Positions 23,374-55,274 of a DNA stretch of 64,000 nt are shown here, one piece after another. Within the stretch, counting starts at the first letter, position 1. Each line of letters begins with the position of its first letter. The notes beneath the pieces were generated by a model. That model saw only the letters and a program-made list of their open reading frames with translations. It had not been told where the DNA came from and did no database searches. Both the position numbers and the translations under genes were made by a program. This DNA is from Chytriomyces cf. hyalinus JEL632 (Eukaryota > Chytridiomycota > Chytridiomycetes > Chytridiales > Chytriomycetaceae), in contig JAIWWG010000009.1 in NCBI GenBank assembly GCA_025435555.1, positions 62,001-126,000 of the forward strand. The letters are read 5' to 3'.

Positions 23374-24580
23374 ATGCAGGACCATCCACTGCCGCAACCA
23401 CCTGAACCAGTGGTGAACCCAGGTGAACCTACACTTGCACAAAGGCAGCCGTCAGTGTTTTCGCAGAAAGTGTGGGCTCGAAGAGTGCCTTGCGACATGT
23501 GCCGGACCAAGAGGGTAAAAACCCAACGCTGCCCTCCTATGAATTGCACCTTCGTTCACCAATTTAACACCTTGTTTTCGTTTACAGATCCGATGCGACA
23601 TTGAAAAACCCAGCTGTGGGTTCTGTCGGCGGCGAGAGATTCGCTGCGTGTACTCTGACAGGAAGACTACCTACACCAAAAGGAAACAAATGGAGTCGCA
23701 GCAGGTGGAATCCAGCAACGCATTGCTTCATTACGTGCTTCCGGGGTTGGATGTGCAGCAGCCACAGTCACAAGAGACGGGTCGGGGAATCAAGGCCGAG
23801 GATGCCAAGCCCGTCACGGCCCTTTCGGAAACAGAACCATCCACGTCAGCGTCGCTGTCTTCGGTGCACACGGCATTCTCAACACACCTTCCTCCCCTGC
23901 ATGCACCATCATACAGCACCATACCCGGTACCCAACTTGACCCTATCCAACAGCAGCAGCATGGCCCAGTATACCAGATGAACTATATACCCACACCCAC
24001 ACTGCATCCCTATTATTATCACCCACCCTCCACCAACAACACCTTCGATTGGTCCAAGCATCCTCATTCGATCAGCAGTTCGTGTAACCCTAATATGCAA
24101 AATGTGATTCAAACAACAGCCACTTCTTATCCAACCAACACTCTGCAAGAATCTGCTACTTCTAAACCGTGTTCCAGTGGCCCAAGTGCCGTCCCACCTG
24201 CCGCCGAGTCACGCTCAGACCCCGCCATCCCACATCCGGCGTTCGTCGTTGAACCTGTCCAAGAATCTCTGAGACTCCAATGCCGCATTTTATCCACGCT
24301 TCTTGACACTATAAGTAATGAGCAAGAGTCTCAGTCAGAGGTGTACCGCGAGAATGTTGCAAAAGCCGTGCAACTCGTTCAGCGGCTGTCTGTGTTTACG
24401 AGTTTAACCCAAATCTCACGTGACGATGCGATGGAACTCAGCCGAGATTTGAATCACGTTGTTGTGGAGCTTGGCTGGGAGGATGCGAGTGAGGGTGGGG
24501 ATGGGGGGGATGAGAGTGGGTGTGGGTTGGAGCGTGGGTTGGAGCAGCTGCAGTTGCTGGTGTCGCGGTGGTTGGGCTGA
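23374..24580 (+). CDS. Zn2Cys6 (Gal4-type) transcription factor
   Basis: Fungal binuclear zinc-cluster regulator of 377 aa from two exons (23374-23514 and 23588-24580; 73-nt intron; in-frame total). The six cysteines span the intron: CDMCRTKR, then IRC, then DIEKPSC, GFC and RRREIRC, giving spacing C-x2-C-x6-C-x6-C-x2-C-x6-C. Downstream are Gln-, Pro- and His-rich stretches and a leucine-rich C-terminal helix. No fungal-specific middle homology domain is evident, so the effector part is short. Zinc-cluster proteins usually bind CGG-type repeats as dimers; target genes cannot be told. A related but broken locus lies about 450 bp downstream. Confidence 0.88.
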
Positions 24581-25039
24581 TGCGCTTTATTTATTGACTA
24601 CACTGACACTCTCCTGTTTGTTTATACCTTGAAGCAACAAAATTTTCATACGCATAAAATTTTTGTGTGACAAATGGTTTATTTAAACTTTGCGCAAACA
24701 AAAACGAAACCACAATTTTTCACCAACGAAGTTTGTGTCGAGTCAGTTAACGCCCTCCCGCAAACAGCATGTCCGAAACCATGAGAGCTGTCTCGAATGC
24801 TTCCCATACAAACCATCCGATTCCATTCGCAGTCATGCTCAGAGTGCGCCAGCGTGCCGCGACTCAACGAACCAAAGCGCCTATGCTCTCGATGCACTGC
24901 CACCAACACAGCACACGCAAGCTTAAGCGGGATGCACGTCAGCGTCATCCCATCCACGTTGCGGCATGTTGAAAGTGAGTGTTTGTTTTACCGCGGGTGG
25001 TTATTATAAAACCCAAACGAGGGAGACTGATCTGTTTTC
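24581..25039. other. Intergenic between the two zinc-cluster loci
   Basis: AT-rich, no coding frame with a domain. It probably holds the 3' end of the first gene and the promoter of the second; a possible TATA-type ATTATAAAA is at about 25002-25010. Confidence 0.45.
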
Positions 25040-25980
25040 ATGACTCCGAGTCTCCACAGCCCTCCCACTCGCACCTCTCCATATCCCAAAGCCCACATCA
25101 CTGAGCGAGCCTCAGCTGGCGACACTTCCGGCACTCAAAATCATTCCGCAAAGCCAGCAGTCGTCCATTGGGAAATTGCCGCATCTGCATCGCTTCCAAC
25201 CTGTTCGACAACAACAACAACAACAACAGCATTCTCAACAAACGGCAGCAGCAGCATCCTCACTGAATAAACCACGGCCACGGCATTTGATGAAGCTCCC
25301 CTAGAAGAACAACTTGAACCCGTGTGTTGGATGCAAGAGTCATAAAAAGAGGTACAACAACGTTCTTGAACAATGCCTGGAACTCGCACCTCTTTTTCCA
25401 TTTCTTTTTCATGCACCCTATTTTTGGTTGATCTAAACAATTGAATTAAACAGATGTGATGGTGCCCGTCCCAAGTGCGGGTACTGCGCGCAAGCGACGC
25501 AAGGTGTCTGAATGCGTCTATCCATGTTCTGCAAAGCGGAAAACTGATTCATCACCTGCAAGCGAAACTGCCCCGTCACCGAAAAGGAATCAGATTGAAT
25601 CGATCCAAAATCAACCTTATCGGTCCATGCAAACTCATTGCGCGCAATCTGGCCGAGTCACGAATCAACATCCTCACTCGCAGCAGCAACATATTCATCA
25701 GCAAGGTATGCGTACACCGAATCAATGCTACGAGCATCATGAACCTCAGCAGCGATGGAATGCGCATCAATCGAATGTTTGTACATCAGCTTTTACACCC
25801 ATTGCTCCTGGCGCTATGCCATCTTTGGTGAATGATCAATCAATACGAAAATCAAATGCATCATCATCATCTTGGATGTATTGCTCCACTCAGACGATGA
25901 AGAAGACGCTGTGGTGGGAAGTGCTGCATCTGTGCCTCGTGCCGCTGAGTGCTGCTTGTGAATTATTTAGTGATACATGA
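25040..25980 (+). pseudogene. Second Zn2Cys6 factor, frame-broken within the zinc cluster
   Basis: The cluster begins CVGCKSHKKR at about 25319-25350. After an intron (about 25351-25453) it continues RCDGARPKCGYC. That frame stops at 25514-25516 (TGA) after QATQGV. The sixth cysteine and the rest (VSECVYPCSAKRK and on to 25980) are in another frame, so one base is in excess between about 25491 and 25510. An upstream in-frame TAG at 25303 can be avoided if it is a CCTAG splice acceptor. The remainder is Gln/His/Ser-rich. Either a recent pseudogene or a sequencing error explains the break; a functional product needs all six cysteines in one frame. Paralogy to the neighbouring gene is likely. 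Confidence 0.55.
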
Positions 25981-26476
25981 GACTTATAGCTGCTTGTGAG
26001 GATGTGTGTGTTGATGTGAACATGAATGATAAAATGATAGACACATGTTTTGTAAACGCTTGTTTTGATGATGCCATCAATTTTTTACGTCATTCTGTCT
26101 TTTTTCTAACCGTTCTAACCGCGTTACGAACCGACAGCTGGATGAGTTGAGCAGATATGCAAGGACGAGCGAGTGTGAGGACGTAGCTGGGAGTGAGTGT
26201 AGTGACCTTCCCGAGTGAGTTCCAGCATCAACCGACAAGACTACCAGCAGACAACAGCGACTGCAAAAGCGGCTTGCCGGTCCAGTCCAATTAATAAGGA
26301 TGCCCGCCGCTTTTTGAATCAGTCTTTGTGTTGTGACAATCAAAACAAATTTTGCAGTTGTTGTGACAAACGCTGTCTTCACTTCAATAAATTGCAAGGA
26401 TTATCCGATCCCGATTTACACTCCACAACTGCAACGACCAACCAACCAACCTACATCGACACACACACAGCACCCT
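25981..26476. other. Intergenic, upstream of the ABC transporter
   Basis: No gene seen. Contains the 5' region of the ABCG gene; no clear core-promoter motif is distinguished. Confidence 0.4.
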
Positions 26477-29400
26477 ATGAGTGAGTTTATCGTTGCCCGC
26501 GGGAGCTCTTCTGACGCCGTCCCGGCAGCCCATGCAGACATACAAGAGGACATTGTCCATGCTGCTGGAGGACCCGACAACACGGGTGAATTCGGGGCCA
26601 TCCATCCTGTCTCCATCATTGCCAAATCTGTCAGTGTCAGGGTAAAGAGCAAGGCTGCTGAGGACTCGGAAGGTGTTCGGTCGATTCTGAATAATGTATC
26701 ATTGCATGTGCCGTCTGGTCAAGTCATGGCGATTATGGTGTGCAGCATTTTTTTTTTAGAGTGCTGTTCTCTCTCGGCAAATCCGCTCAACACATGAAAC
26801 AAAACAACAGGGAGGATCCGGGAGCGGAAAGACCACGCTGCTCAACACGCTGGCAGGAAGACCCGTCGGAACCGTCTCCGGCGAAATCCAATTTAACGGC
26901 GAATCTCCACGCAAATACCACAACTCTGGAATGGTGGCCTATGTCACGCAGCAGGATAACCTTCTTCCATATGTCACGGTCCGCGAAACGTTGCGGTACG
27001 CGGCAAGGCTGCGGTTACCAAGGACGATGCCGCTGGCGAAAAAGTACGAGCTTGTCGAGAGTGTTATTCTGGAGCTTGGACTGAAGGAGTGCGCAGACAC
27101 GTTTGTGGGCGATGAGTGGCGCAAGGGCATCTCTGGTGGCGAGAAGCGGCGCGTCTCGTGAGTGTGTCACGTGATTGATTACAAATCATTGATTACTAAT
27201 CACCCCCCCACACACACACACATACACACACACATACATACGCACATACATACACAGTGTGGGAGTGCAGCTGATGTTAAACCCAAGCGTTATTTTCATG
27301 GACGAGCCAACAACAGGCCTGGACTCCTTCTCAGCACGATCACTAATCGAAACACTTGTATCACTGGCCCATAAACGCAACCGCACAATTATACTGTCGA
27401 TCCACCAACCACGCTCCGACATTTTCGGCTGCTTTGACCAAATCGCGCTCCTCGCACGTGGTGGACGGCTCGCATACTTTGGGTCACCTCGCGGCAGCAT
27501 CCGGTTCCTAGACAGTATCGGGTTCCCAGTCACGCAGGACATGAATGGAGCTGATTTTATCGTGGATGCTGTTGCGATTGATGATCGGAATGATGCTCGT
27601 GAGGCAGAGACGCGGGCGAATGTGGATACGATAGTTGCAGCGTGGGAGCAGAGGGTTGCTGGGCAGCATGGGATCGAGTATAAGGTGTCGAAATCGTCGC
27701 TTGCGTACAAGGCAGCTGATGTTGTAGGTGACTCAGCGGATGATAGTGATACGGTTGGGTTTAATTCGCGTGTGCAAGGGGCTGGAGTTGTGGAACAGAT
27801 TTCGGTGCTCTCGAAGCGGATGGTTGTGAACATGTGGGAAGATCGACTGACGCTATGGGGATCTGTGCTGGAAGTGATTCTGATGGGTGTTGTGATTGGT
27901 GTCATATTCTGGTTGCCGGACCAGGAGCCCACGGGAATGTACAACAGAAAGTCGGCTTTGTACATCTGCACGGCCATGCAAAACTACCTGGGTTTGATGT
28001 TTATGATCTATAAGCTGACGCTGGAGTGAGTGTTCCTGCTTTGATTGAATGTCTGTTCTGACTCTTACTCGTGGCAGTATGCAAGTGTTTGACAAGGAGC
28101 GAGGTGACAAAATGTACAGCGTTGGCGCTTACCTTGTGTCGTGGATTTCAGTCAACTTTACCCTCTACGGCCTTCTATCGGTCCTCTTCTCCATCTTTGT
28201 GGTGAGTGCAGTTTGTTTATTTTTGACGACAACATTTCTGATGCCCTCACTTTACCTCCAGTACTTTATGTGCGGTATGCGCAAAGACGATGTAGGCTAC
28301 CACTTTGGCATGTTTTGCTTGAATTCAATTCTGCAGCAGTGGATCACGATGGCCTTCTCGTTTGTCTGTGTTGCGTTTGCGCGAGACTTTGCGACGTCCT
28401 CGCTGATTGGAAGTGAGTTGCTGCCGCTCTTGGGACAATTACCACGCGGAGACTCCGATTGACTCTTTTCCTCATTTGTTGCAGACTCTGTCTTTACATT
28501 CCTCAGTCTCTCGTCCGGCTTCTTTATCCCCGAAACAGCAATCCCCGTCTACATTCGCTGGTTCGAACACATTTCCTACGTCACTTACGGCCTCAGACTT
28601 TACATCTCGAACGAATTCCACGACCACATTTACGAATGCACGTCTCTGCCAAACATTCCCGAGGCAAGAGCTGCATGCGATGGAGACAACCTCATCACAG
28701 CCACTGGATTCACGCCTGATATCCGTGTCCCTCTTATTGGCCTCTTTTCGTTGTTGGCGGGGAAAATTTTCATCACTGCCGTTGTGCTTTCTTTGTTCCC
28801 TGCTGGTGGGGATAAACAAGCTGGTGCTGTTTCTGAAAAGAAGGACAGGAAGAGCAAAACGAAAGCTACACCCGAAACTTCTCTGGCTATCGAAGCTGCG
28901 CATAAACCACCTGCAATTGCTCTTGAGCTGCGTGACTTGAACTTGGACTTTGAAGTGAAACGGCAACCGCTCATTACGACAAGCGGCGCGCCCAGCAAAA
29001 CCAAAAACATTTTAAAGTGTGTGAATGCGACGTTTCCGCCGGGCCAATTAACGGCGATTTTGGGTGCCTCCGGCGCTGGGAAGAGTACGCTGTTACACTT
29101 GTTGCATGCGCGATCTTCGAACCTTCCATCACACATTCAAGCCGTCAAGACGGGTTCTATTTTGCATAATTCCGTTGAATTTGATAAAACTGCAATCAAC
29201 GCTTGTACAGCCAGTGTTCGACAGGATGATTCGCATTTATTGCCGGCTTTAACTGCACGCGAGACGCTTGTCTATGCGGCGTTGTTGAGGCTGCCCAGCG
29301 CTTGGTCAAAGCAGCAAAAAATTCAGAGAGCTGAAGAAGTGTTGGTGGAATTGGGGTTGAAGGAGTGTGCGAATACGGTTGTTGGTGGGGATGGAGTGAA

Positions 29401-30936
29401 GGGGTTGTCGGGCGGTGAAAAGAGGCGGTTGTCGGTTGGGTTGGCAATGTTGATGGATCCTTCTATTTTGTTGTTGGATGAACCTACTTCTGTGAGTTGG
29501 CTGCAATTGTTTTTTGTTTTTTTTTAGCGTGTGATTTATTGCTGATTTTTTTCTGCTTGTAGGGACTGGATGCGTCTTCTGCTCGAAACATGATGATCAC
29601 GCTCAAGGGCATCGCGGCGCAAGGACGTACCGTGATTTGCACCATCCACCAACCAAGATCCGACATTTTCCCATTGCTCGACCGCGTCCTTCTGTTAGCT
29701 CGTGGCGGTCGAGTCGTGTACCAAGGACTTGGAAGCTCCATGATCCCGTACCTTGCCTCGCTCAACCATAACATGCCCTTCCTGACAAACCCTGCCGACT
29801 TTGCGTTGGATATTTCTTCAGTGGACTTGCGATCGAGTGAAAGTGAAACTTCGACACGTGCTCGTGTGGATGGATTGATCGAGTCGTGGAAATCGAGAGT
29901 GGGAAATGAACCAGGAAGTTCAACCGTTACAAGTGACAGCTTGACCTCAGGTGAAGACACTGTGAAACGCGTTCTCGCGCTGTCTGGATTGAAACGACTC
30001 TCGACAACCAATGCGCTGCCCATTCTCATTTCGAGAAGTTTCTTGAACCTAAGAAGGCAGCCGGGTCTCCTTGCGGCGCGGATCATGAATGAGGTTGCGT
30101 TTGGAGTTATTTTCACGCTTTATTTTGCAAAGATTGCGAATAACCAGGCGGGTGTGATAAGTCGAATTGGGTTGTTGGTGAGTGGGTTTTTGAATCGCGT
30201 TTTCGGTTTTTATTTCTTACTTGTGCTGTAGCAACAAACTGGGTCGATCATCTTTATCGGAATGCTCAATTGCATCGCAGTGTTTCCGCAAGAGTTGCTG
30301 CTGTTTCGGTTTGAGCATCAGGACGGAACAACGACCGTTGAAAACTTTTTCCTGACGTACACAATCAACGAGCTGCCTTTCGGTGAGTTATCTTCAAACA
30401 TCTTGATATTATGAAGGAGCATTGTATTTACTCAAAATTCAACCTCAGAAATTGTTGGTGCTGTAATCTACGGACTCCTTGCCACGTACGCAATGGGTCT
30501 CGCTTTACACCCAGTCCACATGATCATCATGGCGTTCGTCTGCGTGTTTGTTGGAGAATCCATCGGAATCGGGTTCTGCACGCTCTTCTCCAAACCAGGC
30601 TTCTCTGTCCAACTCATGAGCGCCGTCATCTCCGTCTTTAGCCAAACCCAAGGCTTCCTCAGCGTCAACATGCCATCCTTTGTGAACTGGATCAACTACA
30701 TTTCCGTGCTACGATACATGGCGCGCATTTTAGCTGCGGAAGAGTTTACATCCACGCGCATGTATGACTGTGAACCAGGGTTACCCTGCCAGTATCCGAG
30801 TGGAGATGCAGTGTTGCGGTTGTTGAATTTCCCGGCGTCGGATCGGGATTTGATGTTGAATTATGTGGGGTTGGCAGTTTGTGTGGTCATGTATCGTGTG
30901 ATTGCTTATGCGGTTATGAAGCGGCAGTTGCCGTGA
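26477..30936 (+). CDS. Full-size ABCG transporter (two NBD-TMD halves)
   Basis: Membrane ATPase exporter of about 1303 aa from nine exons (introns 26738-26810, 27158-27257, 28026-28077, 28202-28261, 28413-28484, 29492-29562, 30178-30231, 30383-30448; spliced total divisible by three). Order is NBD1-TMD1-NBD2-TMD2, as in ABCG. NBD1: Walker A GGSGSGKTT, Q-loop VTQQDN, signature ISGGEKRRVS, Walker B VIFMDEPTTGLD, H-loop IHQPRSD. NBD2: GASGAGKST, signature LSGGEKRRLS, ILLLDEPTSGLD, IHQPRSD. Both ATP sites therefore look complete, unlike typical Pdr5-type pumps with a degenerate half. Each TMD has several hydrophobic helices and an extracellular loop (for example YECTSLPN). Substrates may be lipids, sterols or drugs. 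A CA-rich microsatellite lies in intron 2. Confidence 0.93.
27200..27257 (+). repeat. CA/CATA microsatellite inside an ABCG intron
   Basis: Imperfect run of CA and CATA units filling the 3' half of the 100-nt intron 27158-27257, up to the acceptor ACACAG. It takes the place of the usual polypyrimidine tract. Confidence 0.8.
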
Positions 30937-31137
30937 TGTGTGTGAGGTTACTTTTTTGCTACTTATCATATGGAGTATAGGTTCTGTTCTCAACGAACAA
31001 TTTTGGCTATGAAAATGATGGTACCTCGCGGACAATGAAAAATGCTTTCTAATGTGTGCCTTGTTGATCATGATTTTTGGATCGTTCATAACTTGAGCTC
31101 TTTATTGCCCTTCTTGACATAGTCTCGACAAAAGACT

Positions 31138-32784
31138 TCAATCCCACGCAGGCGCCAGTCCAGTGCCCCCACTAGCAACTCCACCCACCGGAGCCACTGC
31201 CGCAGCAGACTTTTCCAACTCATCCACATTAATTGATTTCACAACCGTACCCCTTGGTACCGCTGAGGCCGCCGTTTTCGTGAGCTTGGATTTATTGCTT
31301 TGCTGACGCGTCGGATCAATGACAGCCACCACACCAGACCGCAGTTGTTCTTCCTGCTTGTCGAGCATTTTTTCGTGTTTTGATTTTGCGGCGGAGATGG
31401 CTGGGTTTTCTGATGTTGTTGTTGGGAGAGTTGCTGTGTTGGAAGGTGTTGAGGATTTGAATGAACTTAAAAAAAATCCGTCGCCCGATGATTTCTTCTT
31501 AGGTATTTCGGTTGGTTTTGGGAGAGTTTGTTTGGTGGCGGTTGTTGGTGTGATCGTCTTTTGTTTTTGTGAGATTGGTTTTGGCGTTGCAGTTGATGAA
31601 GAGGAGGAGACTTTGCTTGCAGGCTTGACGATGCGATCATGTGGCTTTATCGGGCTATCGGGTGCATTGCTCGATGGTTTTGAAACCTTGATCTTTTTCG
31701 CAACTTTCGATGGTTTTGTATCGTCATCCTTTTCCAAAGCCCGCTTCACTCGCTTCTCACTGACAGGTGGTTTCTCCACATCATCACTTTCATTTCCTCC
31801 ATTCGCCTGCTGCTCCCTAAGAACTTTCTGCTTCTCCACCCACCCACTCTCCTTCCTCTTTTCGCGCCTCTCTAGAAACTTTGCATCAAACCTTACACCA
31901 TCTAGCACTTTCAACCCGTCCCCACAAGACTGTACAACAGCTTCCTTGTACCCTTCCACATCGACAACAGGGTTTCCTTTTAGATTCAAGTTTACGAATG
32001 TTGCGTTTGGAGCGAGGAATGCGAGCGCGGTTGTTAGATGTGCGATTGTGGTGAATTGGATGAGGTTTGAGCCCAAGTCAAGTGTTTTCACCGCAGGGAG
32101 GGAGTGTGTGGTTGTTTGCTTTGGAGCGGGTTTGTTGGATGTTGGTTTTTTGAAGGCCAAGGGAGCACGAGGGAGTGTCGAGAGCTTGTTGTGGCTGAGA
32201 CGCAGTTCTTGGATTTGTGGTGCAGGAATCATAAACACTGGGTACTCTGTGAGACTGTTGTTTGACACGGACAGTTTTTTTAGGTGTGGTAAATGTGGGA
32301 AGGGTTTTGGAAGAGCGGTGAGTTTGTTGTGCGAGAGGACGAGGGTGTTGAGGTTCGCGGCGAGTGGGGTCAGATCGGGTAATGCGGCGATTGAATTGTT
32401 GTTGAGGATGAGAGCTTTCAGGTTGGTGAAGTTGCGGATTCCTGAGATGGATGTGATCTTATTGTGGGAGAGGTTGAGAATCTGTGGGAGATGTGCTTAG
32501 CGTCAGAGGGAATTGTAATCCGGACTAAGGAAGCTCACCTGCAGCAATGGGCAGTTTTCCAGGCCCGCAAATGAAGTCAGGCTGTTATTTGACAGGTTGA
32601 TCCAGGTCAGGTTCGGGAAGGCAAAAGGGCCGAGTGCCGCGTTCGACAGTTTGTTAACGCTGAGATCGAGTTTGCGCAGGGTCTCGGACGCCTCAGACAC
32701 GTCCCCGATCTGGGTCAAGTCCATGTCCGAGCAGTCGGCGCTTGGAGCCTTGGCGGCCTCTTCGTTGAGCGTGAGAACTGCCAT
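31138..32784 (-). CDS. Leucine-rich repeat protein with basic C-terminal tail
   Basis: 529 aa from two exons (32784-32539 and 32481-31138; 57-nt intron). The N-terminal half has about eight LRRs of the SDS22-like or typical class (LRKLDLSVNKLSN, LTWINLSNNSLTSF, ILNLSHNKITSI, LKALILNNNSIAAL, LNTLVLSHNKLTAL, IQELRLSHNKLSTL). They end in an LRR cap: NLKGNPVVDVEGYKEAV and LKVLDGVRF. The second half is disordered and rich in Lys, Ser and Thr with nuclear-localisation-like stretches (KVAKKIKVSK). LRR proteins of this shape act as binding platforms; a nuclear location is inferred from the tail. It shares an 83-bp divergent promoter with the helicase gene, so co-expression is plausible. Confidence 0.82.
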
Positions 32785-32867
32785 TTTCTGGTGGTAAAAA
32801 GAAAGAAAGCAAGGTGAAAAATAACCACGTTTCTTTCTTTTTTCCTTTATAACAACCCTTCTATCTC
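32785..32867. promoter_or_regulatory. Divergent promoter of the LRR and Dbp6-like genes
   Basis: Only 83 bp separate the two start codons (32784 on minus, 32868 on plus). A TATA-like TTTATAACA lies near 32847 on the plus strand and T-rich runs precede it. Both genes must share this segment or overlap each other's leader. Confidence 0.6.
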
Positions 32868-35428
32868 ATGTTCCAAGTGGAAAGATACGGAGAGGAGAAG
32901 CGAGTTACAAGCACGGCGAAAGACACGGCCAAGAGCAGCAGTAAGACCCACAGAGATGCGAAAGAAGGAGACGAGAGCGAGAGGTCCACCGGCGGAAAGG
33001 GCCCGTCTTGGCGAGACATCAAGAGCAAGAAGAAGAGATGGGCTGAGGAAATTGAGCGCGAGATGGACGCTAAGCGTGGGGAGGCTGCAAGTGTCCAGGC
33101 AGACAAGCATCCACACCAGGGCGACACCAACAACGTGACCGAGAAACACTCCAAAAAAAGGACTCGTGGCGGCGCAAAGAACAGAGAAAAGAGGGCTAAG
33201 TTGGTCGCTGACTCGGAGCCAATCATCGAAGCAGTTTCGATTTCAGCTCCTGAGGAAGACCGCACTGAACCGCAATTGGAGAATGATGCGGAGGTGGATC
33301 CAAATTCTGCCCTGGTCAATTCAGCCATGATGGAATCAGATTCTCCAAATGCTGGTGCAAGCGATGAACCAATTGCTGACGCTGAGGAAGACTCGGAACC
33401 TGCCGTAACTGAAGCGGAGCCAGTTGCATCGAAATCTCCCTCGAAACTAGTTCAGCCCAGCTTGAAATCACAAGGTCTACCTCACTGGTTGGCAAATCCC
33501 ATCCGTATCCCTTCAACCCTATTATCAAAGACTGAAACTTCAAGCATCGCGAACTCAAATTACAACCTTTCGAAACACACTCAAGCGCGACTCTCAACTC
33601 AAGGCATTGACCATCTCTTCCCTGTCCAGCAAGCCGTGCTTCCACGACTCCTTCTTTCGCGCTTTTCATCGTCACCCCGAACTCCACCAGGAGATTTGCT
33701 TGTATCCTCTGCAACTGGATCTGGAAAAACGTTGGCATATGTTCTCCCGATCCTCGAATGCCTGATTTCCGGAACCTTTTCAGTGTCTTCTTCTTCTGCC
33801 GCATATTCAAATATGGGTCGAGTTATACCCCGCCTGCGTGCCCTGATTGTCGTTCCCACACGCGATTTGGCAGTGCAAGTCAAAACCACATTCGAACAAG
33901 TTTCAAAAGGAAGTCAACTTCGAATTGGCGTTGTCACTGGGTCCATCAGTTTTCATGCTGAGCAGGAAATGCTTGTGGAGACGATTAATGGTCAGTTTGG
34001 GGGCAGTCGCGATGTTGGGACTGAAAATGCGATTCAGATGGGGGAGCAGTTGCAGCAGAGCTCGAGTAAAGTGGATATTGTTGTTGCTACACCGGGTAGG
34101 CTGACGGATCATTTGAAGGGAACGCCGGGCTTTACCTTGCGGCATTTGAGATTTCTGGTGTTGGACGAGGTAATTGCGTTCTTCTTCGCCTTCGATGTTA
34201 TATGCGCTGACTCTGATTTATTTCGCATGATGTTCAGGCAGACAGATTATTGGTGCAAGATTATCATGGATGGCTGAACCTTGTTCTGAATGCAGTGAAA
34301 TCGGACGCTCCAACTGCCGAATACGGCGCATCAGGGATGGACGGCGAGAGCGTCATTGCGGCTCATTACAAAAACCGTTATGACCGATACCTGTCAAGTG
34401 GTTGTGTTGCTCCAGTGGAACCAAGTGATGATACTGAATGTGGGAAGCTGTGGACTCAACGCGGGCTTCAGATGGATAACCTTCATGCACCTCTACATAA
34501 TGTATTGTCACTACGGCATGAGCATATTCAGAAACTGGATGACGATAATATTCGAATCGCGAAAAGTGGATCTTATTTGCTCCGTCATCATACACCACTG
34601 CAAAAACTCCTTTTCTCTGCAACACTGACGCGAAATCCAGAAAAGATTGCAGCACTCCAATTGGTTAACCCCACGTATATTGCAGTTGCGAACGCCATCT
34701 CAACGCTGGACGAAGATACACCCCTCGGAGGTCAAGACGGCGACGATGAAACCGAGAAATTCACGGCCCCGCCCACGTTGAAGGAGCACATGATTGTCGT
34801 GCCTTCAGCATCTTCGAAACCGTTGATTCTGATGCATATCCTGTTTAACCTCAATTTGCGGGGACTCTTGATATTCACACGGAGTGTCGAAAGTGCGCAT
34901 CGTCTTGCCTCGTTGATTGGATCTGTTGCAGCCATTCAGGCAACCAACGAACCGTCCGCAAGTGGGGTTACTGCGCGGGCTATTACCAGCGACCTTGGTA
35001 CTCAGGAACGAAAACGCGTGATTGCACGTTTCAAGGCGGGGAACGTGTCGTGTCTTGTCGCGTCTGATGTGATGGCACGTGGAATGGATTTGGGAGAAAG
35101 TCTGCTTGGAGTTGTCAATTATGATGTACCTACCGGATCAGGTGGGAGTGGGGAGGCTGGGGATGGTGGCGGTGGTGTTAAGACGTATGTTCATCGTGTT
35201 GGGAGAACTGCCCGTGCAGGTAGAGAAGGTCAGGCATGGAGTCTTGTTGAGGAAAGAGAGGCAAGGTGGTTTAAGAAGGATGTGTTGGCTGGTGTACGGC
35301 GAGTAGGGGGCGAGAAGGGCGTGTTGAGGGTTAAAGTTGGTGTGGAGGATGTTGGAGAGGAGTTGAAGGCAGCGTATGAAACTGCGTTGGGTCAATTATC
35401 TGCGCTTGTGAAAGGCCCGGGACGATAG
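32868..35428 (+). CDS. DBP6: DEAD-box RNA helicase, DDX51/Dbp6 type
   Basis: Nucleolar ATP-dependent RNA helicase for 60S ribosomal subunit assembly. Two exons (32868-34169, 34238-35428; 68-nt intron) give 830 aa. A charged 200-residue head is followed by the helicase core. Motifs are: I SATGSGKT, Ia PTRDLA, Ib ATPGRL, II DEAD (split by the intron, DE/AD), III SAT, IV LLIFTRS, V ASDVMARGMDLG and VI HRVGRTARAG. The DEADRLLVQDYHGWL run after motif II and the position of the insert match DDX51/Dbp6 rather than other DEAD proteins. Two fragments copied from the second half lie downstream (37.7 and 38.8 kb). Divergent to the LRR gene. Confidence 0.9.
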
Positions 35429-35816
35429 ATTTGTTCTGTGAAGGTTTTCGGGATGGGACGACAGACTTTCTGCTCAGTTTTCCAATCAAGTTTTGCAAAA
35501 GAGAGGTGGCAGTTTATTTGACGTCAGAATTTTTACCCGCTGGTTACAACAAAGGGACTCACTGAATGCCTCTGACAACCTTCTCCGCCGCTACATTTCC
35601 AGCACCACCAGAAACGAATCAAGTTGCGGCTGCAAAGCGAACCAGATAGACGGGCTTTCTTCAATAACGCATGCAGAGTCGTTATAAACCAGACCGCACT
35701 GGTGCTCACATCTGGACATTTTGAGTGCAATTTTGTTGATAAGCAGTCCCATCGATCAGGTTTTTATAAATGTAAATCGCACTTTTTAAGAGGACAAAAA
35801 AAATCGAGTTGTTTTT
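35429..35816. other. Convergent 3' region, no gene seen
   Basis: Between the helicase stop and the stop of the GPI-type protein; no coding frame supported. Confidence 0.45.
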
Positions 35817-43578: not shown

Positions 43579-45035
43579 ATGCAGCTCCTTCTCGTTCTCT
43601 CCTCCGTGGCTGCCATGGCACTTGCTCTGTGAGTTTATGACCCCTGCATTCTCGTTATATATCCTGCTCTCCTCCTTCCTGTGCCGTTCCGGTGGGGTTA
43701 AGGCTTGAAGGGCTGAAAACGATCTGGCGGTAGTGTACTATCCAACCAAGTCTTGGTCTCTATGGATACAGCCGAAAGTAGCCTGAATATCTGAAAAGAC
43801 CTTAACTCTGTCGGGGGCGAGACAGGAAAACGAAGCCAGGGTCTCTCAACTGCTCATTTACCCGAAATAATTTTCTGATGTGACACATTTCAAACGTTGC
43901 CTTCAGTCCTGCGTCCTACGTTGCACCCGCTGCAGCCACCCCATCCCTTGTTGGGGTTCCCACTGTTCCCAGCTGCGCTACTCCACCGGCACCCAACAAA
44001 GTGACGCCACCTGCGGATGTGAAACCAACCACTGCAGGGTATGTTCCGCCCACCCCGCCAGCGAACTTGAAACCTGCAACTGCGGCTGCGTATGTGCCGC
44101 CTACTCCACCTGCTAACTTGAAACCAACGACTGCTGCGTACGTACCGGCTACTCCACCAGCGAACTTGAAGCCAACTATTGTCGCGTATGTGCCAGCTTC
44201 CCCACCAGCAAACTTGAAACCTACAACTGCTGCTGCGTACGTACCGCCAACTCCACCCGCAAACTTGAAGCCAACCACTGCTGCCTACGTGCCAGCCACG
44301 CCACCAGCAAACATGAAGCCAACTACAGCTGCTGCCTATATTCCACCGACACCTCCAGCCAAAATCACTCCCACTCCTCCCGCCGACGTCAAGCCAACTA
44401 CCGTTGCTGCATACGTTCCACCAACGCCCCCAGCCAAAATCACTCCCACACCTCCCGCCGATGTCAAACCAACTACTGTCGCTTACATTGCGCCAACACC
44501 ACCTGCAAACGTTGCACCCAAGACGACTCCAGTGTACAACGTACCTGCAAATGTGAACCCAGTCACGAAAAAGAAGTGTGTTCCGAAGGTGGCTGGGCCA
44601 CCTGCGCAGAATGTTCCAGCGCCGGTTGGGTCTGGTGCAAACGCGGTGCCTACCACTTCTTTTGTTCGAGCGAGTGAAGTGTATGAACCTGCTGCTGCCA
44701 CCCGTGCGGCAGGGTCAGCTTATGAACCAATTACCACTCAAGTTTCTTCAGTAGCGCCAGTGACTGCTGCTTCAACCACTGAGTCGGATGAAGTTGTTTC
44801 CAAATCCGTTTCTTCTGCCGTTGTTGCGAGCACGACTGCTGCTTCTGTGGTTACTTCTTCGGCTCCTGTGGTAAGTTCTACCAGCAGCGTTGCTGCAGTG
44901 AGCTCTGCTAGTTTCGCGGAATCTGTAGCTGCACCCACCACGTCAGTTGCGCCATCGACTTTCGCTACTTCTACTGTTGCAAGCACAACGACTGGTAAAG
45001 TTCACATTGACATCAAGATTGGGTACGGAAACTAG
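43579..45035 (+). CDS. Secreted Pro/Thr-repeat protein
   Basis: Two exons (43579-43628 and 43907-45035; 392 aa). The first encodes only the signal peptide MQLLLVLSSVAAMALAL and is separated by a 278-nt intron, several times longer than others here. The mature part has about ten repeats of a 13-17-residue unit of the form YVPPTPPANLKPTTA, with variants ending AKITPTPPADVKP. A Ser/Thr/Val/Ala-rich region without cysteines follows, and it ends KVHIDIKIGYGN. There is no GPI tail. Such repeats are usually heavily O-glycosylated and occur in cell-wall or secreted proteins. Not recognised further. Confidence 0.75.
43990..44510 (+). repeat. Coding tandem repeat, Pro-Pro-Thr-Pro units
   Basis: About ten imperfect copies of a 39-51-bp unit encoding PPTPPANLKPTT-type peptides. 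Late copies switch to a PPTPPAKITPTPPADVKPTT form. The bases differ between copies at third positions, so the array is not a fresh expansion. Confidence 0.8.
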
Positions 45036-45357: not shown

Positions 45358-48300
45358 ATGGTGTCGACCAGATCCAAGACAACAACGCCGCGAGCAACGC
45401 GATCCGGCGCCGCAGCAACGCCTGCAAAGAAGGGCAAGGCGCCCATCGCAAGTGGCAGTCAGGTACGCAAGACTATACGATCATAAACTGTACAAATGTA
45501 ATCAACTGACGAGTTGGTAACATGTTGACCCCCTCGGAATCAGAGCAAGAAGCGCTCGCGATCAGCAGATCCGGCGGTAGCTGCTGTTTCTACCGCCAAG
45601 AAGGGATCCCGGATCGCAGCTATGCGTGCGCGGGAGTCATTGCCTGGCACTTCGAAAAATGCGGCGGACTTGTCTGATCAAGATATGTCAGCAACTCCGT
45701 CAGCGACTCCTTCAGTCGCTTCCAGGAAAAGAGTCGTGTCAAATGGGAGACAAAAACAACCTGCTCCAGCACCGACCGAGATGAAGGAGCCGAAAGTCAT
45801 TTACATCTCTGACGATGAGGACGATGATGACAGTGACTTGGATGATTATGACAATGACAGCGCCGATGAGGATTTTGATGTGCGTCGTGGGTTCGATGTG
45901 GACCAAGTGAGCAAGCTGTTTGGAAAGAGAGGCCGCAGATATGTGGAGGAGGAGGAGGAGGGCAGCGAGGGAAGTGAAGATGCTGAGGATGGCTCTGACA
46001 ATGATAACAATGATGAAAACGAGCAAGGCTCCAACAAGCGCCGAAAGGGCGCTAAAAAGGCAAAGAAGGAGAAGGCGCCAAAGGCTGAAAAGGCTGCCGG
46101 TGGAATGAGCGCCAAAAAGGCCAGGGAAAATGCTGGACTCAAAGTAGCAAATATCGTGCATCGCAAAACTCTGCAACAGCCTGAATTGATTGCGATTAGC
46201 GACAATGTTGCTCCTGATACTTCTTGTTGCCTGGTTTGCTCTTCCCGCGAATTTGCACGTGCTGCCAAAACGAATAACTTGGGTTTGGTCAAGGCGTGTT
46301 TGGACGATCATACCGGTGTTGGAAATTGGATCTTTAGCAGTCCACCTGACAATCCATATTCGGGTGCCCTCAGTACCGCAGTCACTGCTCATCACGATGA
46401 ATTTATCCATCTCCTATTGAAACCGCGGGATGACGGGAAAGAGAATCCTTGCCCGAGCGGTCGCTTTCTTAGCAGCTCTTCGAGTACAGGGCATGTCAAT
46501 TATCGGTATCCAAAGTTTTATTGTTTCTTCCGACGGGCTGCGAACTGATGTTTTTACCTGAACAGTTCGTATGGGCACGCCATGAAAGCTGTTAATCAGG
46601 CACGTGGAAACAAGGAAGGAAATGATGGTAACGATTGCGATTGGTACTTCTGGTGGGATACCCCCCTTTGACACACTCTGTCCTGCAGCATTTTACAGGA
46701 CTTTCACAACAAGTCCGTTTGACTTTGACAAACGCGGAACTCCAACGTACGTGGGAGCCGAGAAAGAAGACTGGTGGAACATTGCTCTTCGCACTGCATG
46801 TCGTGACCGTCAGCCATTTGATGAAAAGATTTTTGATCGATTGAGTCTGGGACATCCGCGTGCGTTTTATACTCTTTTCGAAAAGGAAATCCGGCACTAA
46901 AAAATATGCGTTGGTGGATTAGACCGAAACCCGCAAGCTGCATTCAGTTCTTGGGGGTTGTACGAAGCCGCTATTTCTGGAAACTATAAAATCGCGTCCA
47001 AAATGCTCAACATGATGATGGACTATGGAGAATTCAACATTCTCCACAGAGAATCAGTCTCGTTGGAGTTTGATGCTCCGTTCACCTCCATCAAGCCAGT
47101 CAGCGTGCTCAAGAAAGCGAGCAGAGAGTTGCATTGTATCAAGCCGTTGCATATGAGTGCGATTAACCCGGACCCAAAGAAACTTGCGGCGTTGATGGAT
47201 GCAATTACGCCTGCTAATGTAACTTTTTGAATTTTTTTGGCAGCGTTGTTGTTGTGCTTTGTTTGACAAACGTTTTTCATTCAGCATCTTGATACAGACG
47301 AGTTTGGCCGTACGATCATGCATTTTTCCGCGACTTGTGAAGGAACGGGTCCTCTCAAGCATTTACTGGACTTAAAATTCGAGCCTCGAAGCATGGATCT
47401 GGCTAAAATGACGCCGCTTCTTCTAGCTGCGAAATATGGTTACTTTGTTTCCATGTATTTTGCTTTGATTAAGCGTCGCTGACTTTTGCGGCATGCATCA
47501 GGTCGATCTGAGAACATCAAAATATTGATTGAGGCGATGGGAGGTGGCAAGGATGCGGTGGACATGACCTATTTGGCGAGTAGCTTGACTGCACTGCATT
47601 TTGCGGCTGGAATGGGACACTTGGAGGCAGTGAAGGTGCTCAAAATCGAATGATGCAATTCTCCTGGCTCATTTTGCCATTTTGAAACTGCCCAGGTTCT
47701 CCTCAACTCGGGTGCAACAGTCGACTTGATTGAAAAGAAGGACAAATGCACAGCCCTCATGTTTGCATGCAAATACGGACATTCCGAAATCGTGAAGGTG
47801 CTTCTTGAGCATGGAGCGGATGTCATGCTTACAGACAATATGGGGCGTACTCCGTTGATTCATGCGTGTAAAAACGGATATTACAACATTGTTGTAAAAT
47901 TGTTGAATGAAGGATCGAATGCGATGGCGTTGGATAGCAGTGAAAACACTGCGCTTCACTACGCGTGTGGTATGTGAATGGGATTTGTCGCTCTTTTTGT
48001 TACTTACTGCCAGTTGATATCAGGTTATGGCTGGAAGGACATTGTTGATCTTTTATTGACGTACGGAGAAGCCGATTTGAATGCCGCAAATGCTTGGAAA
48101 TGCAATCCACTCATGATTGCGGATGTAAAGGGCCACGTTGGACTTGTTCGCCACCTTTTAGAAAAACCTGGAATCACAGTGGACTTTTTGGACTCTGAAG
48201 GATACAGCATGATTCACTTGATGTTTGTTAAAGGCAGTGTCGAGAGTGCCTACGAAGCTGACTCGCTGTTGATGAAACTGGAGATGCTCTTGAATCATGG

Positions 48301-51300
48301 AGCGGACCCGAATTTAAAAGGATTGAATGAGAATACGGCGCTTCATCTGTTATGTAACTGGAGTGCCTGGTTTGGTTCGGAACAAGAAACTGATGCGGCG
48401 TTTACGGATGCGCATGTTTATGAATTCCTGGTCAAGTGTTTCAAAATCTTGGTTGGAAAGGGAGCCAATCTGGAGGCCAAAAACAAGGATGGAGATACGC
48501 CGCTCAAAATTGCACTCAAGAATGCGCATTTCCCGCTCATGTCAGCGCTTTTGGAGGCCGGTGCATCACCTGCGAATGTTGTTGGAGCTAAAGGACGCAA
48601 TTTTATGCACATGTGTTGTGCAGCGTTTGTACAGGTGGATGGAATCAAGTTTGAGAAACATCAATCGTTTCGGGAAAACGAGTTTAATGGGTTGGAAAAG
48701 AGGCAGCAGCGGGCTTTGGCGGGGGCGCTTGAGTTTATTCAAGTGTTGATGCAGGATGAGTACAAGGAGGTTGTGGCGGCGCAGGTTTGTTGCTTTTATT
48801 TTTGTGGTTGTTACAGCAAGGCATTCTGATTGGTTGTACAACAAGCAGATGCTTGAAGTGGATGACGAAGGATACACGCCGATGCTTAAAGGAATGCAGT
48901 CTGCAGTTACGACTCAATCAAATGGCAGCGAAAAGTTGTTGACTGATTGCTCCAATCAATCCTGGTGAGTTGTTCACCCACGTTGACATAACGTGTGAAG
49001 AATCTGAGATATATTTATTGTTTACGCAGGTTGTACGGCGTCAAGGACCTCCCTGTCAACTTGCAACATACGCACGCATGCTGGTCACACTTTGCGAAAG
49101 AAATCCTGGAACGATCGCCGCAACTTGTTACTGCCCGTGTAGTGCTTCCTCGCAACTTTGTCAAGGCCAAACCTACCGATCCTAATCCTCCACGCCTAGG
49201 ATATTCAATGCTTCATTTTGCTGCTTGGAAGACTGAAAGCGACCTCGTGACGATGCTGTTGAACTATGGCGCCGATGTAAACGCTGTTGGAGATGATTTG
49301 ACTACGCCCCTTCATTTCCTGGTGCCGAGATTGTTTGAGAAGCAAGACGTGCCGGGTGAATCTGAGTACTTTAAATATGTTATGAGAGATTGGAAGGCGG
49401 ATCAGTTGAAGAGTTTGACGGCGTTTGTTGATGCTGGGGTGAATCCGCTTATGCCGAAAGTTGGCGATGAAACTGCTCTTTACCGAATTTTAAAGAATAT
49501 GGAGTCGGAATGGAAAGGCATTGAGGATGGGATGAAGGCGGCGTTTGAGCGTCTATTCGACAGTGCGAAAAACTTCGAGGCCAGTGGGTTCGATTACATC
49601 AGCAAGAATGACAAGAAGTCTTGTGTTACGGTTGCTTTTGAGAAGGGGTGGGTTTCATCTCGTCGATTATTCTTTTAATTTTGCTAAACATGGTGTTTTA
49701 TAAGGTACGATGAGTTGGCTGCCAAGTTTGTGCAAGCAGGCGCGTCTCTATCTCTTACTGGCGTCAACAACGTGTCAATCCCACTTCTGGCGATTCGTCA
49801 AGGTCGGTTGTCTGCAGCCAGCGTTGTCAAAGACTCGGATTTGTCTATCCCCGATTCCAACAATGTAACCTGTCTGATGGAAGCGTGTCAACGCAGTGAT
49901 GATCTTGTGGAACTTCTCCTCGCGAATAAGGGCATCTTGAATATTGGCCTTGTGAACAATTGGGCGCAAAATGCTCTTATCCTTGCTGTTGTCGGAGGCA
50001 GATCAGCGGCGGTTGTTCGGAAATTGGTTGAGCGAGGTGCTGAAGTCAATTTTGTTTCTGCGCATGGAAAGACGGCGCTTATTCATGCGATTGAGTATAA
50101 GCTGGTTGCAGTTCTTAAAACTTTGATTGAGTTGGGTGCCAGAGTGGATGTGAAGGACTCTCGACAATATGCAATGCATTACGCGGTTGAGACGCGGAAT
50201 GTCAAGATTGTAGCGGCGTTGCTTGACGCTGGAGCTGATGCAAACGTGCACAGAGACAAGGACAATGCATCACCACTCCATGTCGCAGTCGAAGAGACCA
50301 AGAAGGAGGTTGACAAGTCTCTCAAGATTGAACGTGCGCTTATTCAAGCTGGCGCTAAAATTAACGCTGTGGATGTGCAAGGACGAACTCCACTTCACAT
50401 CGCCTTTGTCGGTCTTGGTACTGTCCCGCTTATGGGATATACAGCCAAAGAGCGCACGGTTCGGTCGAAATATGATTCGGATGTGGCTCAGCGTAACAGT
50501 GTTCATCAACGGGCTCTTGATTCGGTTGAAAAAGTCTTGGGAGTTGGAGCAAAGACGAGTATCCCAGAAGTCTTTGAATGGTTCTTTCAGAAACCGAAAC
50601 AAGAGGCTGAGAAGTCTGCACCAGAAATTGAAGACAAAAGAAGCCAAGCAGACGAGTTTGTGAAGGGGGTATTTGAAGTTGAATCACGTAACAAGAGTGA
50701 CCCAGTTGAGCTTGTGGATTACTTGGCCGGGTTGAAAGGGATCTTGACGGATGTTGTAGACCAGTTTGGGCGCAGTCCGTTGCATTATGCGGCCAGGGTT
50801 GGAGCATCCTCGTGCACCAATGCACTAATTAAATCAGGAGCTGAGATGGACAGGAATGATAAAGACGACAACAGTCCTCTTCAACTTAGTTTGATTGGGG
50901 AGAATGTTGACTTTTTCTTAAACCTTGCGCTTCAAGGCGCTGACGTGAATGGGAAAATTGTTCTTGCAAGTGGGCGAAAGGAAACCAACTTTTATTGTAA
51001 GTTGTCCATCTTGTTTGTGCTGTGCTGATATTTCCAATTTTTCAGATGCTCTGTCAAAGGGATACATGTCCATCGGTTACTTCATCAAGAATCAAGGCAA
51101 ACTGAACCCAATCGAAATCATCAGCGACGCGTTACGTACTGGAAAGTACAGCTTGGCACTCACAGTCCTCGGCAGTCTATCTCGCTCTCAAGTTCTTACC
51201 AAAGACTCAGACAGCCGCACGTTCCTCCACATCCTCTGCGACTTTCAAGCCACGAATTCAAAAGTGTGGGAGGATGAGTATGCTGAAGAAATGCTCAACA

Positions 51301-54300
51301 TCCTGCTCAAGGAGGGTGTTGAAGTGAATGCTGTTGACAGTAAAGGACGGACGGCGTTGATTCTTGCTGCGGAGAATGAGCACTGTGTTTTGGCTGAGCA
51401 TCTTCTTCGTGTTTCTGGAATCAACATTAATGCCATGGACGACTCGGGATGCACTGCTCTTCTTAACGCTGTGATGAAGAGCAAGTCTGAGTTCATTTTG
51501 ACGAAGCTGATTGAACATGGTGTGGATGTGAATCATGCTGACACGTCAAAGCAAGTGTCAGTTCTGCGTGCCGCGGTTGATAGTCAGAAGATCCGAATTA
51601 TGACCAAGCTAATTGAGGCTGGTATCGCTGCTGATTCTGAAGAGCCGCACAACAAGATGACTCCTTTGGTGAAGGCGATCAAACTACAAAATCTGGAAAT
51701 GGTGGACTTGCTCATCAAACTGGGCGCGGATTTAAACAAGCCATCGGCGTATCAAATGAATGGGGAAAATAGCAAGTCTGTCATTGTAACTATTAAGCCT
51801 TTGATTGCTGCACTGGAGAACTCGGGAACGGCGTTTGAGGTGAATTGAGTTTGGCTATTTTGAATCAAAACGTTGATGTTTTTTCCCTTCCTTCCTCCAG
51901 AAACTGATCGCAGCGGGAGCCAGTGTTGATGCACGCCATCCAATCTCAGACAGGACACCGCTAATGATCAAATTGAATCCAGGAATGCCAAAAGAATTAC
52001 TGCTCAATCTTCTCGAAAAGGGCGCCGACATCAATCTCATTGATCCAAAACTCAATCGATCCGTGTTTTACCGCGGCGTGTTTGAAAACATTTCCTTCTT
52101 TTCCGAGTTGGATGAAAGCTTGCGCCGATTTAAACCGGATGCGACTGTGTCGGATCCTGTCACGGGATGGAACTTGATTGACCATGCAATTAATAACGCG
52201 GATATGCCGTTGCTTGAGAAACTGTTGGCGCTTGGAGCGAATGCGAATGTTTGCTCGTCTGTCAAGGCAAACTCGCATAAACTGACGAGCGTCATGCGAG
52301 CAGTTAAAAGCAATTTCACAGAAGGTGCAAAGGCGTTGGTGACGCTTGGTAAAGCCGATTTGAAGCTTGTGGATGCCAATGGTCGCACTGTTATTCACCA
52401 TGTTGTCATGCCTGAGGATATGGCTTCGTATGAGAATGTGGACTTATTTGACTTCTTAGTTCAGCATGGCGCTGCGGTGGATACCAAGGATGTCGAGGGT
52501 AAAAGTTGAAAGGATTTTTATTTTTGATGATGCATTTTCTCATTGTATTTCTTTGGATTGTCAGGAAACCGACCAATTGATTATGCAGTGCGAAGTTCAG
52601 CGCGTCTCATTTACGACCGTCTTGTTGCGCTCAAATGTGGACGCCCTAGAGCCGCGCAAGCATTGGATATGGAGATGGTTGATGCCGTTGTTCCGTTGAG
52701 CGATGCCGAAGAAGACGCCAAACTGCAGCGAGTTGAAATGGAGCGTGCCATGGAAAAAGAAGCAATGACCAAAATGCTTGCTCTGGCGCGTGAACGTAAT
52801 GTCGACGTTAGCGTTTTGAAAGCTGAAGCGAAACAAAAGGAGTGGGTTGCGGTTGATCGAAGTGCGGCAATGGATGATGCGCAAGTGCGTGTGTTGTTTG
52901 AGGGTGATGGCGTTGAGACTGTAAGTTCATTTATTTTCAAGTTTGATGTACGTCCTTATGATGTTTGTAGTACAAGCCGTATGATGTTCTGCTGCACAAG
53001 TGTGACGTGTCCAAAGGTGTTTACGGCGAGAACAAGTTTTATAAGATGCAAGGTGATACGAACACACATCGACAGCGGTATATGACGAACTAACAACCCC
53101 GATTCTAGTCATTCACAACCATCTGCAGGACATGTACTTTCTCTTCAACAAGTGGGGAGGTATCGGCCAAGGAGACGGAATGTTCCAAAAGACCCCTTAC
53201 AACTCCAAAGAAGAATGCATCAAGGAATTCAAGAAAGTATTCAAGGCAAAGTCTGGCAACGACTGGGAAACTGAGTTTACTGAGAAACCCGGCAAATATT
53301 TGTTGGCAAAGATTACCAAAAAGAACCCTGTCACGGCGAGGCCATTGGATTTCAAGGGAACCCCAGCTTCTCAATTGCATGAGCCCGTGTTTGAGGTTCT
53401 GAAAATGTTTATGGACGTTGCTGCGATGAAACCGTCAGCTTCTACCTCAGATTTGTCTCTTCCCTACGACGGACTGCCGGAATCTGGCGTTGTTCAAAAG
53501 GCGTACGACATCTTGACTGACCTCAGAGAGACCATTATTGAATTCGACAGAATGCTTAAAGATCCAGCAGCGATTCCAGATGCCAAGACCATGTTGCGTT
53601 TGAGGGAAAAGCTCGTCTTGCTTTCGACAGATTATTTCCGGCTTGTTCCAACAACCGAGTTTGGTCGCCGTGGACTCAGCCCAATCATGTCTTTGGAACT
53701 GTTGAGTGCTCAAATGGTCCGAATCAATAACCTGCGTTACTACGATGCTGGTCTCACGCTTCTGCTGTCGGCTGCTTATAACCGCTTGCGGTATAATCCT
53801 ATTGACTACGCATACTCGGCGCTTGGATGTTACATGAAGCCACTTGAAGATGGGTCCGAGAATTCTCTGCTTCGCCGATGGATTGACACAACAAAGGGAG
53901 ATGCCTCCGTTGATGTCGTCAGCATCCTCAAACTCTCACGCGAAGGAGAATCCGCAGCATTTGAAGGCAATCTCAATAACCGCAAGTTGCTCTTCCATGG
54001 TTCAAGAATGTCCAACTTTTTGGGAATTCTAAAAAGCGGTCTCCGTGTAGCGCCAATTGAAGCACCTGTGACTGGGTACATGTTTGGAAAGGGAATCTAC
54101 TTTGCAGATGTGTTTCAAAAGAGTTATAATTACGTGTTTGATCATATTGGGCGAGGTGGTGGTCGGGAAGCTTATGGATGCCTTCTTATCTGTGATGTTG
54201 CGCTTGGAACTTCGTATGAGGCTGTGCAAGCTGATTCGAATTTGGAGGTGGCGAAGGCTGGGTCGGACAGCACAAAGGGTCTTGGTCAGCGCGTTCCGAA

Positions 54301-55274
54301 ATCGGATGCTGAGTTGACCATGTTCAAAGATTCAGTGAGTTCTATATGCGATTTCTGATGAATCTGCCACTGATTTTACTTTTATTTTTGAACAACAGGT
54401 CAAATTGCCCATGGGTCCAATCGTGGATGCCCCTGCCCGAGAACCCGGAGCAACAGATTATTCTCTCATGCACAATGAGTACATTGTCTACAGACCCACG
54501 CAAGTCCAAATTAAATATATGGTCGTTGTTCGTGACAACTCTGTGTGTCACTTGTGTTCGAGTTGTTCGGGCGGGTTGAAGCGGTGTACCGACTATGGGC
54601 AAGATTTTGAGAAGAAGGTTGGGTTACCGCGAAGGTGTCCGTTTGAGAGTGATGTTGTGGGTGTTGTTATGGAGCATCAAGGATATAATGGGAAGAGGCT
54701 TTGGGAGGATGAAATGCCGGGTTTCATTTCTGCAAAGAAATACGGTATTATGGTTTTCAGGGGTATTTATATTCTACTGATGCCTTATTTTTTTTTTTTT
54801 TTTTGGTGTGCTGCAGAGCCCACCTGGACTCCACCAACAACTCTGAGAGACGACTCGAAAATCTGTAAAAAATGCGCAGACATTCTCATGGGTTCATTGA
54901 TGGAAAGTTATCTCCAACAGCATAAGGACGCGGCTCCAAGTAAGGATTTGAGTTTTTAACCTGGCGGTTAGAGTGGATCTCTGATGCCTTACTTGCATTT
55001 ATTAGAGTCACTTGTTGAACGTGAAAACTGCTGGTACGGCCGTGACTGCAGGACACAGGCCTCTGGTACTGAGCATGCGCGAATGTTTAACCATTTCTGT
55101 GACAAGAAACCGGAAGAAGAACTGGCGGTTGCGGAGAAGACCTTGCAGCAAAATGGCGATATTGATGCTGTGGATAACGCATCGGCGAACGGGGATTCTG
55201 ATAACGGAGACAGTGATGGGAATGAGGACAGCGAGGACGAAGATGAAGATGAAGATGAGGACGAGGACGAATAG
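45358..55274 (+). CDS. Poly(ADP-ribose) polymerase with ankyrin repeats, WGR domain and C-terminal PBZ-like finger
   Basis: Nuclear NAD-dependent ADP-ribosyltransferase of roughly 2,900 aa with about 18 introns. From ATG 45358: a basic head (MVSTRSKTTTPRATRSG), an acidic Lys-rich region (about 45.8-46.1 kb) with nuclear-localisation-like KKAKKEK, then about 20 ankyrin repeats (46.2-52.6 kb), such as DMGRTPLIHACKNGYY-like and DKDNASPLHVAVEE. WGR (52970-53330): YKPYDVLLHKCDV, FLFNKWGGIGQGDG, KTGNDWE-like, PGKYLLAKI. The helical domain follows (PYDGLPESGVVQKAYDIL). Catalytic domain: His in LLFHGSRMSNF, Tyr in GYMFGKGIYFAD, Glu in HNEYIVY. Then a Cys-rich linker (CHLCSSC, ICKKC) and a PBZ-like finger, CWYGRDC then HARMFNH, ending in an acidic tail. 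H-Y-E suggests polymer synthesis. Exon edges in 46.5-47.6 kb are not resolved. Confidence 0.88.

Follow-up and report, generated by a model that had tools for sequence, protein, structure and literature searches.

The question raised by this locus is whether a single protein both writes and reads PAR, i.e., whether a PARP carries a PAR-binding zinc finger (PBZ) behind its own catalytic domain, and whether such a chain should be regarded as a new kind of system or as a variant of known ones. The window (the whole stretch of DNA analysed, 64,000 nucleotides) represents C232:62001-126000 of genome G000, an intron-rich genome of 37.8 Mb in 242 contigs. At 45358..55274 of the plus strand, a span that the earlier note had given and that fits exactly from ATG to stop, we recognized one gene: the frame opens with the ATG at 45358, continues uninterrupted through GT-AG introns to the stop codon at 55272-55274 and, under our splice model, encodes 2912 amino acids in 20 exons. 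All 19 introns (49-81 bases) were set by eye on three-frame displays. The gene structure is as follows.

45358-45462, 45544-46505, 46566-46627, 46689-46859, 46923-47218, plus strand: exons 1-5
47285-47438, 47502-47635, 47696-47969, 48024-48784, 48849-48964, plus strand: exons 6-10
49030-49647, 49705-50996, 51046-51839, 51901-52498, 52565-52920, plus strand: exons 11-15
52971-53052, 53109-54334, 54399-54744, 54817-54939, 55006-55274, plus strand: exons 16-20
54940..55005, plus strand: last intron, 66 bases, GTAAGG...TAG, joining the PBZ exon in frame

Up to the end of the catalytic domain, the chain is composed of the following parts.

45358..46248, plus strand: low-complexity N-terminal region, basic and acidic, residues 1-270, a disordered start
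47411..52491, plus strand: ankyrin array, about 25 recognisable repeats
52980..53272, plus strand: WGR domain, residues 2235-2313, over two exons
53369..53815, plus strand: PARP regulatory (helical) domain, residues 2346-2494
53885..54533, plus strand: PARP catalytic domain, residues 2518-2712, over two exons
53996, 54098 and 54477, plus strand: codons of the catalytic triad H, Y and E

The N-terminal exon, in the region of residues 1-270, matched no Pfam family. For the remainder, the full-chain Pfam search gave Ank_2 at 372 bits, PARP at 158.1, WGR at 60.8 and PARP_reg at 30.5 (cut-off 26.8); the profile search for WGR and PARP that had been called for beforehand thus returned both, and the WGR and helical domains do follow the ankyrins as had been supposed. 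The ankyrin array was likewise correctly seen, with the number of repeats underestimated at about 20: a profile derived from the repeats of the protein itself gave 25 matches, a few of them partial, 24 at E < 0.05. The H-Y-E triad, already noted as complete, is intact in this copy of the gene and in a second one described below (H 2555, Y 2589, E 2694 in the window copy), and the three residues fall in stretches that align with PARP1 structures. Against solved structures, the region from WGR to catalytic domain matched PARP1 at E = 6e-66, PARP2 at 2e-56 and the tankyrases at about 1e-4, which makes PARP1/2 the nearest solved relatives. Ankyrin repeats, WGR, PRD and PARP catalytic domain are thus present in one chain, and by domain content it is a Clade 1A-like PARP, whose catalytic domain would be expected to synthesize PAR. 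One detail missed in the earlier note concerns the WGR motif itself (53153-53161), which reads W-G-G in both copies; since the Arg that gives the domain its name is replaced by Gly, the sensing of DNA breaks may be altered.

Behind the catalytic domain, three further parts were distinguished.

54534..55007, plus strand: cysteine-rich linker, residues 2713-2824 with 7 Cys, from exon 18 through 19 into the first bases of 20
55020..55094, plus strand: PBZ finger of the CHFR-like subtype, C-x5-C-x8-H-x5-H
55029, 55047, 55074 and 55092, plus strand: zinc-ligand codons of the PBZ
55110..55271, plus strand: acidic C-terminal tail

The finger carries two Cys and two His in the order of PBZ (PF10283). 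The pattern had been correctly described as ending in H-x3-F-x-H with two extra residues, and indeed the spacing from the second Cys to the first His exceeds that of the APLF-type pattern by two. As the same spacing, C-x5-C-x8-H-x5-H, is found in the CHFR-like PBZ that this genome carries on another contig (C185), the two extra residues are an ordinary trait of the subtype. The finger also retains residues common to the CHFR structure sequence and the C185 PBZ. Its alignment score was reached by none of 2000 shuffles against either of these two, by 3/2000 against a PBZ on C172 and by 18/2000 against half of a PBZ on C27. In a search of the tail against PDB, the top matches were CHFR chains at about 1e-5 (best E = 9e-6). 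By its spacing and residues, then, the finger is of the CHFR-like PBZ subtype, and would be expected to bind PAR.

The Pfam profile of PBZ gave a mixed outcome: the PBZ exon of the window matched with E = 3.5e-4 and 20.9 bits, short of the curated cut-off of 22.7, and the tail of the second copy passed it with 24.5. PBZ was absent from the full-chain Pfam matches at E 0.01, and in a six-frame search of the genome the two sites scored 22.7 (window) and 26.5 bits (second copy). An AlphaFold2 model of the PBZ exon, built from a three-sequence input, had a mean pLDDT of 57.1, too low to be informative.

Evidence that finger and enzyme belong together comes from the second copy of the PARP locus, which lies in reverse orientation on contig C174 with about 89% DNA identity. 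Projection of the window model, a procedure that makes the comparison a consistency test, recovered 20/20 exons with GT-AG sites and with lengths that are the same or differ by multiples of three. Intron length, in contrast, differs between the copies in 14/19 cases, in 9/19 by a number that is not a multiple of three. The last intron measures 66 bases in the window copy versus 67 in the other, and the PBZ frame common to both copies can therefore be reached only through splicing. Because all exons stay in frame despite the 14 changes of intron length, the finger is part of the PARP gene, and the single chain claimed at the outset, a single gene with splicing common to two copies, is well supported by this comparison of genomic sequences.

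Selection has acted on the whole chain, finger included. The two proteins are identical at 2780 of 2916 aligned columns, identity amounts to 94.2% in exons versus 82.4% in introns, and dN/dS is 0.10 over the whole chain. By part, dN/dS is 0.014 for the WGR domain, 0.063 for the catalytic domain, 0.083 for the PBZ (from 7 differences only), 0.21 for the cysteine-rich linker and 0.24 for the acidic tail, the last indicating weak sequence constraint.

The two copies match over two collinear blocks. The first, of 12.7 kb with 88.8% identity, pairs window positions 22690-35431 (C232:84690-97431) with C174:235307-222560, and the second, of 22.4 kb with 89.3% identity, pairs 40092-62463 (C232:102092-124463) with C174:220088-197843; at one end there is also an inverted piece of 1.5 kb. 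When 124 kb of C232 was compared with 99 kb of C174, no other match of at least 600 bases appeared beyond these blocks and the inverted piece. Being confined in this way, the matches favour a segmental duplication over a plain haplotype. A doubled assembly, in which C174 would simply represent the alternative haplotype, is considered less likely also because searches for PARG, zf-CRD and CFA20 found a single locus each above the cut-off, with weaker matches under it on C100 and C204. We therefore regard a segmental duplication as more likely, and a divergent allele as the less likely origin of the C174 copy.

Around the enzyme, the genome holds further parts of PAR metabolism. Apart from the two copies, PARP was matched on C225 (with PARP_reg at 129 bits) and C9, and PARG on C221. 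In the CHFR-like gene on C185 (L021 6291-7382), zf-CRD and PBZ both pass their cut-offs, and a RING-like stretch falls short of its own. With PARPs, PBZ and CHFR-like genes and PARG, the parts for writing, reading and erasing PAR are all present. A search for HPF1 gave no match in the one genome searched (0/1), where the control was equally without a match. On C172 (L035 4244-6289), a PBZ that is presumably of the APLF kind, judging by its appearance, extends over two exons ahead of a DUF4246 protein (360.7 bits). Identical PBZ scores were obtained at C27 (L036, C27:56500-63000) and C61; the C27 PBZ adjoins frames that look ligase-like by eye, and the one C27 frame scanned had no Pfam match to a ligase. 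This locus could encode a PBZ-bearing ligase K such as that reported in Mortierella. As to the host, the N-terminal domain family of chitin synthase marks fungi and CFA20 marks flagellates; the fungal-type chitin synthase domain gave 14 matches in the genome and CFA20 a strong match at one locus, so a flagellated fungus is the most likely source.

Taking these results together, we think it fairly probable that the gene encodes a PAR-sensing writer, i.e., a Clade 1A-like PARP with a CHFR-type PAR-binding finger behind the catalytic domain that provides local feedback. In such an enzyme the WGR and helical domains would switch on activity at DNA breaks or in response to another nucleic-acid cue, the ankyrin array would determine which partners or substrates are engaged, and synthesis of PAR would fall to the catalytic domain. 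The PBZ would then bind PAR made by its own chain or by a neighbouring PARP; so bound, it could keep the enzyme where modification has already occurred and promote the lengthening or branching of chains, which would amount to local positive feedback. Every step of this scheme, from activation through PAR synthesis and PAR binding to feedback, is predicted from domain content. It has analogues in published work, as far as the excerpted texts go: binding of PAR by the N-terminus of PARP2 activates that enzyme towards branched chains and the PBZ of APLF reads PAR branches (PMC6089979), and a PBZ tether steers covalent PARylation, an effect abolished on loss of four zinc-binding cysteines (PMC13097088).

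A reading that deserves weight, unlikely as we hold it to be, is that the finger acts in trans only, as a targeting tag that brings the protein to PAR made by other PARPs (the C225 enzyme, for example) and leaves its own catalysis unaffected. The further PARP matches in the genome agree with such a role, as do, in the excerpts of the two papers, the PBZ of Dictyostelium Ku70, which serves enrichment at damaged chromatin (PMC5087659), and the recruitment of human PARP2 by PAR that PARP1 has made (PMC6089979). Binding in cis and in trans would nevertheless look alike in sequence, and the finger is fairly near the active site in the chain, its first Cys lying 138 residues past the catalytic Glu. 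It is more doubtful still that the finger has lost PAR binding and serves as a structural or protein-binding zinc finger: the Pfam score is indeed marginal and the spacing departs from the PBZ consensus as excerpted from PMC4030884, yet the residues it has in common with CHFR and C185 are kept, and the PBZ codons are constrained, albeit on few differences. That the last exon comes from another gene or from a splicing artefact, as might be suspected of a splice model made by eye from genomic DNA alone, is highly improbable, and we discard it as a separate gene, for the C174 joint is in frame across introns of unequal length, the finger frame of C174 contains no ATG in the interval from the last stop before the finger to the finger itself, and in the window an AATAAA begins 34 bases past the PARP stop codon, with the next gene convergent on the minus strand.

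Is the PAR-sensing writer, the reading we prefer, a new kind of system? We take PMC2964712 to be Citarelli et al. 2010. Clade 1A as described in its excerpted text consists of ankyrin repeats, WGR, PRD and PARP, and is reported from Dictyostelium, fungi and Paramecium; a figure legend names a CCHH zinc finger, the PARP that bears it not being given in that text (PMC2964712). A survey of 2014, likewise excerpted, places Dictyostelium ADPRT3 and C. elegans PME-5 among ankyrin-type Clade 1 enzymes, describes PBZ together with a PARP catalytic domain in Entamoeba (E. histolytica), Capsaspora and the lancelet (section 3.4), as well as PBZ in Dictyostelium PARPs, and has fungi without PBZ (PMC4245714). 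Later excerpts report fungal PBZ in DNA ligase K of Mortierella (PMC6264785) and in Eurotiomycetes (PMC12543289).

Set against these precedents, the present chain has the domain make-up of the Clade 1A PARPs up to the catalytic domain and the same H-Y-E triad; it differs in the W-G-G motif and in the C-terminal PBZ, which the excerpts on that clade do not mention. With the PARP-PBZ proteins of E. histolytica, Dictyostelium, Capsaspora and the lancelet it shares writer and reader in one protein, whereas those precedents, as far as the excerpted text describes them, include no fungus, their further domains and the position of the PBZ being unstated there. The CHFR ubiquitin ligase (2xoc, 2xp0) resembles it in PBZ subtype, in the C-terminal position of the finger and in the cysteine-rich stretch ahead of it, but has FHA and RING, neither of which was matched when the full chain was scanned with Pfam at E 0.01. 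Tankyrase (Clade 4) also combines an ankyrin array with a PARP catalytic domain, and has a SAM domain where the present chain has WGR and PARP_reg; with no SAM match in that scan at E 0.01 and PARP1/2 far closer, identity as a tankyrase was rejected.

The suspicion that the fusion might be undescribed thus held in part. Neither the exact ankyrin-WGR-PARP-PBZ chain nor any fungal PARP-PBZ was seen among the open-licence literature matches listed or in the excerpts, and one may exist in papers outside those listings, in figures or supplementary files, or in protein databases; but ankyrin-WGR-PARPs and PBZ-PARP combinations are both in print, if cited here from excerpts, and the fusion is not unprecedented. 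Since neither half is new and pairings of this sort have been reported from other organisms, we consider the gene an informative variant rather than a new kind of system, and the surprise a modest one, arising from the CHFR type of the finger, the fungal setting and the conservation of a duplicate. Its value lies in the union of writer and reader, roles usually divided among separate proteins such as PARP1, PARP2, APLF and CHFR: one chain with both allows one to ask directly whether positive feedback is what makes PAR signalling spread. Moreover, if the genome is fungal, as the chitin synthases suggest, several PBZ sites, a CHFR-like gene and a PBZ-bearing PARP in two copies would make PAR reading in early fungi richer than the excerpted 2014 survey indicates.

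As a tentative history, for which we claim rather low confidence, a CHFR-type PBZ may have become fused to the C-terminal end of a Clade 1A PARP of the ankyrin type within a lineage of flagellated fungi, giving a self-reading writer in which PAR binding drives branching or spreading, followed by segmental duplication with both copies kept under selection.

That the whole post-catalytic tail derives from CHFR, as its cysteine-rich domain plus PBZ, was tried and rejected. At first sight, cysteines and an E-S-D motif of the linker seemed to line up with CHFR; on testing, homology was unsupported. The cysteine-rich domain (zf-CRD, PF17979) was not listed in the tail at E 10, a search in which the HMMER filters drop most weak matches, and the six-frame genome search for it gave nothing at the PARP locus. 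The score of the linker against the CHFR structure sequence was reached by 385/1000 shuffles and that against the C185 CHFR-like gene by 34/1000, a weak excess, and the profile alignment of the tail spans 33 columns only, all of them PBZ.

Two neighbours of the PARP gene may finally be mentioned. The convergent gene downstream on the minus strand is one that we take, by eye and from its motifs, to encode isocitrate lyase, and the duplicated blocks carry this adjoining gene along with the PARP gene. Just upstream, on the same strand as the PARP, an open frame rich in Pro-Thr repeats (PPTPPANLKP-like) extends over 43884-45035, 383 amino acids from stop to stop.
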